This document shows, one piece after another, positions 30,091 to 33,384 of a DNA stretch of 64,000 nucleotides. The position numbers and the translations under genes were made by a program. Every line of letters starts with the position of its first letter. Positions within the stretch are counted from its first letter, which is position 1. The notes beneath the pieces were generated by a model. It was not told the DNA's origin and did not search any database. It worked only from the letters and a program-made list of their open reading frames with translations. Location of the stretch: assembly GCF_918378365.1 (NCBI RefSeq), contig NZ_OU912926.1, positions 2,604,001-2,668,000 on the forward strand, in the 5' to 3' direction. Source of the DNA: Candidatus Nitrotoga arctica (GTDB taxonomy: Bacteria; Pseudomonadota; Gammaproteobacteria; Burkholderiales; Gallionellaceae).

Positions 30091-33000
30091 TCATTGCGCT
30101 CGCGCCAGATTCATTACCAGTAAGCGGCGCAGGATTTCTTCGTCTGCTATCTCCGGCGTGTAGTCGTTCCAACTGTAAGCCTTGGCGACAGCGGCATCCA
30201 GTACTTTGTGCGCATTATCCAACCATGCGGGGCGGGCATTATAGAGGTTGGTGAGAGTGCGTTTTTTCAGGTCGGCCTCGTGTCCGGGTTTGGCAACGGA
30301 GCGCGCTGGGTAGCCTGCTTTTTCTTCTTCCGGTGTGCGCACCCAATTCGCCCACTCTGGCGGGTTGAGCCAGGTCTCGCGTAGTTTGTTCAATTCTTGC
30401 GCGGATGCGGCAATCTCGGCGGCTGCGGGGTTGCTGTATTCGGCTGGTTCGAGGTTGGGTGTCAGTCCTTCGGGGAAAGGGAATGTTTCGAAACACGATT
30501 TGGCGTTATAGGTTGGCCTGCCTCCTTCGTCGCCATCTCCATGTTTGGACGAATTCGCTAATGACCAGATTTCGTGAATGCGCGTGGAAAGCACGCCAAA
30601 GGCCATGTCATCCTCACGCGCGATAGCGTAGAGGCGACTATCCGGCAGCACGCTAACATCCAGCCACGTGAACATCCTATGCTTGGCGACGCGCGGAGTA
30701 GCGATGTAGCGTTTGAGCGGGGCGAATGCGGCGCGTAAATCTGCCCCAGTTCTTCCGTGCAGCCACCATTTCGCCTTACGCCCCGAATCGTTCTGCGCAT
30801 CACGCTGCGGCTTCACCTCGCGCAATACGAGGGCAAATGGCATCTCGTAGAGAGATGCTTCTTGTTCTGTGCGGTTTGTTCCAAAGTCGACAATCCAAGT
30901 ATCAGAGGGGCGGCCTGTTAAATCCTGTCCGTTCGCCCACGGTCGTAACACATCGCTGTTCGGCTTACTGTTTGGATTGGGCTGTTTGAGCCATTGCCGC
31001 GCAAGCTCACCGGGAATGTCGAACGAACCAACTTTGACCGGACCTTGAAAGGCCACGCCCGTATTCTCATTCAGCGGCTTAGCCTGCGTGAGATTCAGCC
31101 CTTCGCCTGCAGTCAGGTCGGCGTGGATGTTCTCAACGGTCTTGCCATCCAGCACAGCACCCTCACCCTCCGCCCTCTCCCGAAGGGAGAGGGAACCAAA
31201 GCACACCAGCGACACGCGCACCGCAGCGCCTTCGTTGATCCATTCTTCATCCCTCCAAGCATTGAAGATGCGGGTGGTATCGCAGATTCGCGCCAGCACT
31301 TTTTGGTTCGAGCCTTTGCGCACGGATTGTGTGGCAACCAATCCGGAAAGCTGACAATTACCAGCTTCGATTTGTGCACGCGATTTCTCAAACCAGTATG
31401 TAACCAAGTCGGCACCGCCCGGCACGCGATCTACGTAGCACTTGCGCAAGGCTTCGGTGTATTCATCTCCCAACTCGCTGCGCATCTTCTTATCGCCTAA
31501 AAATGGCGGGTTGCCGATGATGACATTCACGGCAGGCCATTGGGCTTCGACAATATCCCCCTCGCCCTCTGGGAGAGGGGCTAGGGGTGAGGGTGATGCA
31601 GCTAGTTCATTCCAAAGATCTTGCAAAACCGATTCCGTTTCTTGCAACACTTGGTTATTCCAATAGCGAATGACGCGAATGCCCTGCTCTGCTATAAATT
31701 TTGTTCTAGCTTCGTCATATTCAATATTGTCCGCATGCTGACTGCCATCAAGTTCAACAGCGAGATTTGCCTCATGACAATAAAAGTCAATCACATAAGG
31801 CGGCACTGGATGTTGGCGACGAAATTTTTTACCTGCAAATCGCCGATCTCGAAGCAACATCCAAAGCAAATTTTCTGCGTCGGTCTGGTTTTGTCTTAAC
31901 TCTCTGGCGAATGCTCTTAATTCAGGCGGAATATTTGTATCACTACAAACGGCACCCTTACCCCTAGTTCCTTTCCCAGAGGGCGATGGGAAAGAAAGTA
32001 GCGCATCGCGATTTTCAATATGGTCGAGCGGTTGCAGGATAGGGTTCTTGCGTATGGGATAGCCGTGTTTGAGCATCCACTGGATTTCACCAATCCACAC
32101 GGTGACGCGTGCGAGTTCGGCGGCATAGGGATTAATTTCAATGCCCAGCACATTGGCGGGCGAACATTCGATGGTGATTTGCCGTTGTAGTCCCAAGGCT
32201 TCGGCTTCCAGATTTGCCCGATGTTCGAGGTCTTTCAGCGTGCGCAGGGCAAGGTATAGAAAGTTTCCGCTCCCGCACGCTGGGTCTAACACGCGAAAGG
32301 CTTTGAGCCGTTCGAGGTAGGTAATGAACACGGCTTGCGCGTCGCGTTCGGCCTTGTCGCCACTCTTCTTGCGCTTGGCAATGTATGTGGCAATCACGGC
32401 GTGCGCGACTTCCCATTCCGCTGCCAGCGGTTCAACGATAACGGGGTTGATGATGCGCAAGATGGATTTCTGGTCGGTGTAGTGCGCGCCGAGTTGGGAG
32501 CGTTTCTTGGGGTCCAGACCGCGTTCAAATAGCGTTCCGAATATCGAGGGTTCAATCCCGCTCCAATCGAGTTTGGATGCTTGGAACAATATCTTGATTT
32601 CGGCGGATTCAAGCGGCAGGACTTCGACCTTCTCGAACAGGCCGCCGTTGAACCATGCTATATCGTCTGCGCCGAAGTCGCCACCTTTACGCATGGAAGT
32701 AAACAAAGCTTCCAAGCGCGTGAACAGTTTAACCGGGTCGGTCTGGCTCTTGTCCAGCAAACGTTCAAACAGTTTGCCAGGAAGTAGTTCGGCATCTTCG
32801 GCGAACAGGCAAAACAGGCATTGGTTGAGGAAGTGCGCCACGGTCTGCGAGGCGTGTCCTCTGGCGTTCAATGATTGCGCGAGGGCGGCGAACTTGCCCG
32901 CTGCTTCTTCGGTGATTTGCGTGATAGTACGCTTCGGGTGGAACTTGTCCGGGTCGGTGAACAGCCAGCGCAGTTTGTCCAGATTTTCCGGTTCGCTGAT

Positions 33001-33384
33001 TTCTTCCAGCGCGATCGTGTGAACTTCGCTGGGCGCGTTAGTAAAGTGTGTGTGGATTTCAATGATGTTGGTATCGCACACCACGAGCAACGGCGGGTTG
33101 TCCAACGCCAGCGCGTAGGTCATCAACTGTTTCAGGGCTTCGCCGAGGTTGCGCCGGGTGGCTTTATATTCAAACGCGAAGTGGCCTTGCTTCCACACGT
33201 CCGCCCAGCCTTGCCCGGCTCCGGTGCGCGTTGCCCCGCGCTCGAAGCAATAGGTATCGTAACTGGATGGGGAAGGGTGAGGAACGCTAACTAGAGCACA
33301 CAGGTCAATAAAGTGGAGTTGGTAGCTAGCGCGCTCTTTAAGAGGGTTGTCTTTCCACTTCTGGATGAACTGTTGAGGAGTCAT
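30091..33384 (-). CDS. Type IIL (MmeI-like) restriction-modification enzyme with an inserted DUF559 nuclease domain
   Basis: A single-chain restriction and adenine methyltransferase enzyme of 1,097 residues. The N-terminal PD-(D/E)XK nuclease shows Asp62-x9-Glu72-Tyr-Lys74, the spacing known from MmeI. SAM motif I is LDPACGSGNF (366–375) and catalytic motif IV is GNPPF (624–628). Between them, residues about 463–611 are a DUF559 nuclease-like domain (VIDFYCHEAN, then VELDGSQH near 543–550) edged by SPSGKGTRGKG and SPLAPLPEGEG, which are translated REP-like repeats. A further REP translation is at 730–743. Without these inserts the length matches the family (about 930). The target-recognition region is C-terminal. 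The start overlaps the RAYT fragment stop (ATGA). Whether it still folds and methylates is unknown. Confidence 0.85.
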   Translation of the reverse strand: MTPQQFIQKWKDNPLKERASYQLHFIDLCALVSVPHPSPSSYDTYCFERGATRTGAGQGWADVWKQGHFAFEYKATRRNLGEALKQLMTYALALDNPPLLVVCDTNIIEIHTHFTNAPSEVHTIALEEISEPENLDKLRWLFTDPDKFHPKRTITQITEEAAGKFAALAQSLNARGHASQTVAHFLNQCLFCLFAEDAELLPGKLFERLLDKSQTDPVKLFTRLEALFTSMRKGGDFGADDIAWFNGGLFEKVEVLPLESAEIKILFQASKLDWSGIEPSIFGTLFERGLDPKKRSQLGAHYTDQKSILRIINPVIVEPLAAEWEVAHAVIATYIAKRKKSGDKAERDAQAVFITYLERLKAFRVLDPACGSGNFLYLALRTLKDLEHRANLEAEALGLQRQITIECSPANVLGIEINPYAAELARVTVWIGEIQWMLKHGYPIRKNPILQPLDHIENRDALLSFPSPSGKGTRGKGAVCSDTNIPPELRAFARELRQNQTDAENLLWMLLRDRRFAGKKFRRQHPVPPYVIDFYCHEANLAVELDGSQHADNIEYDEARTKFIAEQGIRVIRYWNNQVLQETESVLQDLWNELAASPSPLAPLPEGEGDIVEAQWPAVNVIIGNPPFLGDKKMRSELGDEYTEALRKCYVDRVPGGADLVTYWFEKSRAQIEAGNCQLSGLVATQSVRKGSNQKVLARICDTTRIFNAWRDEEWINEGAAVRVSLVCFGSLSLRERAEGEGAVLDGKTVENIHADLTAGEGLNLTQAKPLNENTGVAFQGPVKVGSFDIPGELARQWLKQPNPNSKPNSDVLRPWANGQDLTGRPSDTWIVDFGTNRTEQEASLYEMPFALVLREVKPQRDAQNDSGRKAKWWLHGRTGADLRAAFAPLKRYIATPRVAKHRMFTWLDVSVLPDSRLYAIAREDDMAFGVLSTRIHEIWSLANSSKHGDGDEGGRPTYNAKSCFETFPFPEGLTPNLEPAEYSNPAAAEIAASAQELNKLRETWLNPPEWANWVRTPEEEKAGYPARSVAKPGHEADLKKRTLTNLYNARPAWLDNAHKVLDAAVAKAYSWNDYTPEIADEEILRRLLVMNLARAQ
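31160..31193. repeat. REP-like hairpin inside the type IIL gene
   Basis: CCCTCTCCC (31173–31181), a GAA loop, and GGGAGAGGG (31185–31193) form a perfect 9-base-pair hairpin with a CCCTCACCCTCCG lead-in. It resembles the two repeats flanking the DUF559 cassette about 400 bases away. It is translated in frame as SLSLRERAEGEG. Confidence 0.75.
31557..31595 (+). repeat. Left REP-like repeat of the DUF559 cassette
   Basis: Contains CCCTCTGGGAGAGGGG followed by CTAGGGGTGAGGGTG. Its reverse complement matches the repeat at 31953–31990 with five differences, mostly C/T transitions. On the coding (minus) strand it is read as SPSPLAPLPEGEG. Confidence 0.75.
31953..31990 (-). repeat. Right REP-like repeat of the DUF559 cassette
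   Basis: On the plus strand it reads CACCCTTACCCCTAG, then TTCCTTTCCCAGAGGGCGATGGG. It is the inverted partner of 31557–31595. On the coding (minus) strand it is read as FPSPSGKGTRGKG. Confidence 0.75.

Follow-up and report, generated by a model that had tools for sequence, protein, structure and literature searches.

A DUF559 nuclease segment inside a type IIL restriction enzyme of Candidatus Nitrotoga arctica, probably a copy of a mobile palindromic element

Introduction

Repetitive extragenic palindromic (REP) sequences and their REP-associated tyrosine transposases (RAYTs), known together as REPtrons and REPINs, combine short palindromes carrying an unpaired tail, present in many single and inverted-pair copies, with the gene of a small DNA-processing enzyme flanked by the same repeats. 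Both traits recur in the locus described here, the multiple copies being seen in relatives: a DUF559 nuclease domain lying between inverted REP-like repeats, in frame, within an MmeI-like type IIL restriction-modification enzyme of Candidatus Nitrotoga arctica (GCF_918378365.1, NZ_OU912926.1; the 64,000-nucleotide (nt) stretch analysed is called the window). We consider it probable, at roughly 60%, that the segment is a copy of a mobile, palindromic element of REP-like type that codes for a Vsr/EDxHD-type nuclease, that the nuclease is probably active in the spread of the element, and that in-frame insertion is tolerated without splicing. Unlike the REP/RAYT systems, the cassette carries a PD-(D/E)XK/Vsr-type DUF559 enzyme and not an HUH Y1 transposase, and many of its copies are in frame inside conserved genes, although REPs inside genes are on record in the available passages of PMC3733652.

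Palindromic repeats lying in frame in unrelated genes are also known from Rickettsia; these elements measure about 150 bp and the passages available (PMC10969869) mention no nuclease gene, whereas the window insert encodes a nuclease domain. Inteins are likewise in-frame nuclease inserts in conserved genes. A Pfam search of the window protein at E 0.01 shows no splicing (Hint) domain, and repeat peptides flank the nuclease, hence the insert is presumably not removed from the protein. The very-short-patch-repair endonuclease Vsr and E. coli YcjD are further known systems close to the nuclease, and Vsr is not known to have mobile repeat flanks; the DUF559 protein NGO0050 (PDB 3hrl) is a short chain of 104 residues. 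Vsr is described as a mismatch-repair nickase (PMC1189080, in part). I-Bth0305I (PDB 3r3p) is by its PDB name a mobile-intron enzyme and has long DNA-binding regions (PMC3943268, in part), whereas no intron or intein was found around the window cassette, whose flanks are palindromic repeats. As to transposons with terminal inverted repeats (TIRs) and target duplications, neither TIRs outside the palindromes nor a duplication is visible by eye at the window copy, whereas both are found in a relative, genome G295.

The cassette resembles a REP system except in its enzyme, or an intein that does not splice, and it failed the defining tests of both; there is a fair chance that the cassette family is a class of its own. 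In the open-access literature, no report linking DUF559 with palindromic repeats was found by title, start of abstract or passages.

The insertion in the window enzyme

The host gene and its cassette lie on the minus strand and comprise the following features.

30091..33384, minus strand: host open reading frame, MmeI-like type IIL restriction-modification enzyme of 1097 residues (reading frame and Pfam domains)
33163..33201, minus strand: host N-terminal nuclease motif D62-x9-E72-x-K74 (36-row alignment)
32260..32286, minus strand: host methyltransferase motif I, DPACGSGNF, residues 367-375
31953..31990, minus strand: left REP-like arm (upstream in reading direction), eroded, in-frame translation PSPSGKGTRGKG
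31603..31920, minus strand: DUF559 nuclease domain, residues 489-594 (PF04480, E 2.6e-37)
31747..31788, minus strand: predicted nuclease active-site stretch, D533-F ... E544-L-D546 (residue invariance, fold match)
31558..31595, minus strand: right REP-like arm, in-frame translation PSPLAPLPEGEG, palindrome at 31560-31578
31501..31512, minus strand: host methyltransferase motif IV, NPPF, residues 625-628
31160..31193, minus strand: single REP-like repeat, nuclease-free and in frame within the host gene, SLSLRERAEGEG

The original prediction, made from the letters of the window alone, had proposed a complete DUF559 domain in frame in an MmeI-like enzyme. The domain indeed covers profile positions 3-108 of 109, scoring 127.5 bits where the cut-off is 20.6. 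In the host, MmeI_N, MmeI_hel and MmeI_Mtase exceed their Pfam cut-offs; MmeI_C, at 17.9, falls short of its cut-off of 27, and at E 0.01 no match to the MmeI target-recognition model is listed. The predicted N-terminal D-x9-E-x-K motif is present, and in an alignment of 36 rows E72 and K74 are invariant and D62 nearly so. The insert spans about residues 464-611. It had been placed exactly between motifs I and IV; it does lie in that interval, but starts about 90 residues past motif I.

The two arms, of 38 nt each, are inverted repeats identical at 33 of 38 positions (87%), the same count as predicted, and the flank-to-flank local alignment scores 28 against a best of 16 over 30 shuffles. The hairpin energies of the arms are no better than those of shuffles (z -1.5 and +1.1; -2.65 for the single repeat), no stable hairpin is predicted for the left arm alone, and neither GTAG nor CGTC occurs in the arms. 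The GC content of the cassette core is 0.43 against 0.55-0.56 in the host parts. No in-frame ATG, GTG or TTG occurs between residues 441 and 505, suggesting that the nuclease is made only as part of the enzyme. The full-length AlphaFold model of the enzyme is poor (mean pLDDT 59).

The nearest folds of the DUF559 domain include I-Bth0305I and Vsr (PDB 1cw0, 1vsr), and the domain matches the EDxHD-type catalytic fold; toxin-subunit rows (E 0.026 and above) were weak and were taken as chance. Residues D48, E59, D61 and H65 of the segment are invariant in 13 copies, and the conserved D533, E544 and D546 are presumably catalytic.

By comparison with its homologues, the DUF559 segment is an insertion into the type IIL enzyme. 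Among the best 120 listed of 8000 scored whole-protein homologues, PF04480 is present in five, the window protein included, and absent from 115; most close homologues do not carry the segment, as they would if it were an ancestral domain standing there without repeats. In an alignment of 65 proteins (64 of the listed 120 and P0121, a match of the segment search), many homologues have no insert between DHIENRD and EAQWP..NPPF; one of them is P0002, which is 87% identical to the window protein in its best segment. A single repeat occupies this site in P0010 and P0030, in the same place and frame, an inverted repeat pair without nuclease in P0024, and a repeat pair with DUF559 in P0001, P0121, P0045 and P0114. 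The DNA of relatives at this site is empty (L228), holds an inverted pair (L229) or holds a repeat of another family (L231). An independent genome of the same genus, G282, carries the same insertion at 92% identity. Selection ratios were used for the window-sister pair only, since most other pairs have a synonymous divergence close to 1 or higher; in the window-sister pair both the nuclease and the two host halves are under purifying selection, and synonymous divergence is 0.16 for DUF559 against 0.44 and 0.28 for the host halves.

The single repeat at 31160-31193, overlooked by the original prediction, is also present in cassette-free homologues such as P0002, and at this second site P0116 and P0119 carry a DUF559 cassette. 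Both sites are read as permissive linkers because repeats of several other families lie in frame at both; across homologues the same two MmeI-family linkers are hot spots for in-frame copies of unrelated short repeat families. In the close relative P0121 (724 residues), the cassette is kept, its right repeat is joined to sequence beyond the second repeat site and the NPPF stretch is lost, which looks like a deletion between repeats.

The window's own genome holds few copies of the palindromic repeats. Its one other DUF559 match is weak (E 4.2e-7, G000:C1:157644-157883, in a 723-residue frame), and no type A-D repeat was found in the 3240-nt locus around it.

The repeat-flanked unit in other genes and genomes

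The cassette is not peculiar to the window enzyme. From the loci compared, the unit can be written as [palindrome-tail]-DUF559-[tail-palindrome], and its palindromes appear also as nuclease-free singles and inverted pairs in many genomes. PF04480 is found in 107 of the 250 genomes of the order. Two locus samples were drawn, regardless of whether DUF559 was in frame with a host gene: the 80 best-scoring PF04480 places among these genomes together with the window locus (n=81), and the best 80 of at least 579 relatives from several phyla, 78 of which were testable. An inverted repeat, counted when the arm score was more than 3 above the highest of 30 shuffles, lies across DUF559 in 57/81 and 62/78 loci, respectively. 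Repeat types A-D, defined by patterns derived from the flanks of the first sample, fall in the adjacent 270-nt bin in 46/79 loci upstream and 55/80 downstream, and in 0-8% of other bins; in the second sample the adjacent bins hold them in 45/75 and 47/76 and bins elsewhere in 0-7%. Close A-type pairs are oriented tail-inward, as in the cassette, in 17 of 26 cases among the matches listed, and some B-type pairs in G118 run the opposite way.

The repeat-DUF559-repeat unit, which the original prediction had proposed to look for at other loci, was found in many unrelated genes. A search with the segment alone, restricted to proteins of about 600-1900 residues, gave 734 matches; among the best 120 of these, 106 have repeat-type peptides on both sides of DUF559, whereas none of 550 randomly chosen positions in homologues lacking the cassette does, the peptide pattern having been devised after inspection of the flanks. 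A Pfam scan of 38 long-frame proteins from the fetched loci, which left out other long-frame candidates (30/81; 42/80), recognised a host domain in 34. DUF559 is the sole domain in the other four (L145, L190, L051, L059), suggesting that some long frames may be chance.

The host enzymes, named on the basis of their domain sets, are presumably as follows. Methionyl-tRNA synthetase (MetRS) accounts for at least 22 by motif among the matches listed, and also for L096; other synthetase hosts are ValRS (L165) and another class I enzyme (L182). The hosts also include MnmG (L101), RecG (P0147, P0150, P0176), PriA (L193), HrpA at two places (L167, L171) and the C-terminus of DnaG (L078), while DNA methyltransferases and type I restriction subunits are frequent hosts. 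Further hosts are AsnB (L057, L067), MetH (L149, L161), a lipoyl ligase (L077), YgiQ (L048, L074), a Mur ligase (L187, L201), a class III aminotransferase (L164) and an aconitase-type protein (P0223); RimM (L179) and TatD (L075) are end fusions. The insert splits a Pfam domain in AsnB and YgiQ, lies between two C-terminal domains in MnmG and, in RecG, between the DEQH and SAT motifs. PF04480 is rare on phages (3 of 50,697 records) and plasmids (44 of 72,556).

Dispersed copies occur within single genomes. In G217, a 592-nt unit is present three times in unrelated flanks (L052 and L063 99.7% identical, L054 about 95%), together with a truncated fourth unit and, among 49 scored matches, 34 further places sharing only the palindrome and tail; at L121 and L131 the outer ends of the unit enclose one palindrome. 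In G295, of the window's family, six dispersed type-B copies are 85-94% identical and are bounded by inverted repeats GGTTCTATGTGA.../...TCACATAGAGCC, and beside the cassettes stand six nuclease-free elements, 78-145 bp long, that share these ends. For the 14 elements with these ends, the 8-bp flanks match their own partner at 5.57 of 8 positions against 2.63 for other pairs (0 of 20,000 permutations); the match is at least 5/8 in 11 of 14, and L334, L325 and L306 show no duplication (2-3/8). Taken together, these comparisons show that repeat-DUF559 units have increased in number within genomes and have inserted into many genes, in which they are kept in frame. The mobility of the unit, shown by comparison, agrees with the predicted mobile nuclease module that has REP-like ends and tolerates insertion into coding sequence.

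The outer ends differ between genomes, with TIRs outside the palindromes in G295, other ends in G217 and none at the window copy. Four G295 loci (L333, L341, L342, L306) are nested, another palindromic element, with ends CATAGGTATCTACACAACTTT or near, lying inside the centre of the first palindrome.

Repeat type and nuclease lineage

On the nuclease tree, where near-copies contribute to the clustering and few forks are well supported, repeat type changes 17 times against a shuffled mean of 36.8, and none of 200 shuffles was as low. The window nuclease falls in a supported set of 19 (SH-aLRT 98), 16 of which lie in frames of at least 350 residues.

There are 1526 matches to the A-type pattern, spread over 74 of the 250 genomes, against 3 for a reversed control. 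The pattern is present in 50 of 71 genomes with a strong DUF559 (E 1e-20 or better) and in 24 of the 179 others; at least 20 copies are reached in 18/71 and 1/179, respectively. At least five B-type copies are found in 14 of 17 genomes with a B-type DUF559, 6 of 45 with other types and 5 of 188 with none fetched. C-type counts are small (2/8 for the same type). Because the genomes compared share ancestry, the p-values of these tests overstate the evidence.

Two members of genus g32 rich in repeats, G157 and G193, had been expected to hold a repeat-flanked DUF559; this expectation failed, the places fetched being unflanked. In these two genomes and in G100, all repeat-rich, a flanked DUF559 may have been lost or missed in assembly, or there may be another mover.

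Movement of the element

The comparisons suggest that DUF559 moves the element by acting on its own repeats. The nuclease would recognise its palindromic ends, folded or double-stranded, and would cut either these ends or a target, after which repair or replication by the cell could place a copy of the unit, or in trans of nuclease-free repeats, at another site. Within coding sequence, only in-frame insertions tolerated as loops would survive; the nuclease would then remain in the host protein as an additional domain, unspliced and difficult to lose by frameshift. At the window locus, the insert would have entered a permissive linker of the type IIL enzyme between motifs I and IV.

Several observations weigh against this reading. 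In a further, mostly lower-scoring batch of 15 DUF559 places, 10 have neither repeat nor inverted repeat and only L293 and L296 show a clear inverted repeat, so that mobile and immobile lineages of DUF559 seem to exist. In MetRS, host and nuclease identities correlate (r 0.82), suggesting that most of these copies are inherited and not recently moved. A-type abundance among carriers is only weakly type-specific (22/33 A-type, 12/29 other, p 0.07). Among the places fetched, only unflanked DUF559 is found in G157, with its 400 B copies, and in G193, with 42 A copies, and G100 (74 A copies) has only a weak DUF559 match. No target duplication was seen at the G217 units, and TIRs with 8-bp duplications were seen in one genome, G295, and not in G217 or at the window copy.

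In the nearest alternative, which we regard as unlikely, the nuclease homes: it cuts an existing single palindrome, repair copies the unit in from a filled copy, so that only sites with a palindrome already in place can receive it, and the palindromes themselves spread by another process. The G217 loci L121 and L131, in which one palindrome lies between the same outer ends, and the TIR-palindrome-TIR elements of 78-104 bp in G295 are what unfilled sites should look like, although recombination between the palindromes, which are also direct repeats, would yield the same empty element. The homing endonuclease among the nearest folds and the lower synonymous divergence of DUF559 in the window-sister pair also fit homing. 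However, nuclease-free repeats outnumber cassettes (34 single against 4 among the scored matches in G217) and track the presence of DUF559, for which homing alone is insufficient.

Somewhat less likely still, another transposase would move the palindromic repeats in trans, with DUF559 as a repair-type (Vsr-like) or defence nuclease riding along. TIRs with 8-bp duplications are the expected traces of a DDE transposase, and their presence in G295 speaks for such a mover, as do the repeat-rich genomes without repeat-flanked DUF559. As these two features are traits of the ISL3 family, an ISL3 mover was considered in G295 and rejected: no ISL3 transposase domain was matched there, other transposase families not having been searched. 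A RAYT is also disfavoured. PF01797 (Y1 transposase) has 71 matches in 27 genomes, 25 of which hold at least 12 A-type repeats, but a repeat was found at 1 of 30 fetched Y1 loci, scanned whole, against 66 of 81 DUF559 loci with a repeat within 1500 nt. The clustering of repeat type by DUF559 lineage, and the abundance of B-type repeats with B-type DUF559, likewise argue against a passenger.

A repair function is suggested by the Caulobacter DUF559 protein VsrA, for which a role in mismatch repair was proposed and which accounts for the SOS response in the absence of a methyltransferase (PMC12907096, in the parts available). These data support nuclease activity in the cell, and a repair role as well. 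A DUF559 gene is also among those up in a Deinococcus methyltransferase mutant (PMC6712171, in part). According to the same passages, mutation of a cytosine methyltransferase is thus accompanied by induction of DUF559 genes in two bacteria that are not related, and methyltransferase genes are frequent cassette hosts; a link between methylation and the nuclease is possible.

It is very improbable that the nuclease serves the type IIL enzyme as a second cutting domain or in repair. Purifying selection on the nuclease and both host halves would fit such a fusion, as would the frequency of DNA methyltransferases and restriction proteins among the hosts, but the same module occurs in MetRS, MnmG, RecG, AsnB and MetH, where such a role is implausible, most listed type IIL homologues lack it, and P0121 keeps the nuclease having lost the NPPF stretch. 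That the domain is ancestral to the enzyme family, or that it is an artefact of assembly or chance, has nothing in its favour beyond the window copy and can be dismissed in view of the 115 homologues without DUF559, the same insertion in the independent genome G282 and the shuffle controls for repeats in both locus samples.

Implications

To return to the nuclease as the mover of its own repeats, a wider proposal is tentative, at a little under even odds: that a superfamily of G/C-rich palindromic repeats spread across bacteria (of the CCCTCACCCC, CCCATCCC and AAATCCCCCC types) owes its mobility to DUF559 nucleases and forms a class of mobile element distinct from RAYT systems, inteins and homing introns, and that in-frame, unspliced lodging in conserved and essential genes shields the nuclease from loss. 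Short palindromic repeats of types A-D occur in many of the genomes searched. The CGTC superfamily of REPs, which is not that of the window, is described as having no dedicated transposase (Di Nocera et al., PMC3733652, in the passages available), and a nuclease whose lineage follows the repeat type is a testable candidate mover for families without a known transposase. In-frame cassettes would also account for odd "DUF559 fusion" annotations. With in-frame, unspliced nucleases in MetRS, ValRS, MnmG, RecG and MetH, selfish DNA would be hiding in indispensable genes.
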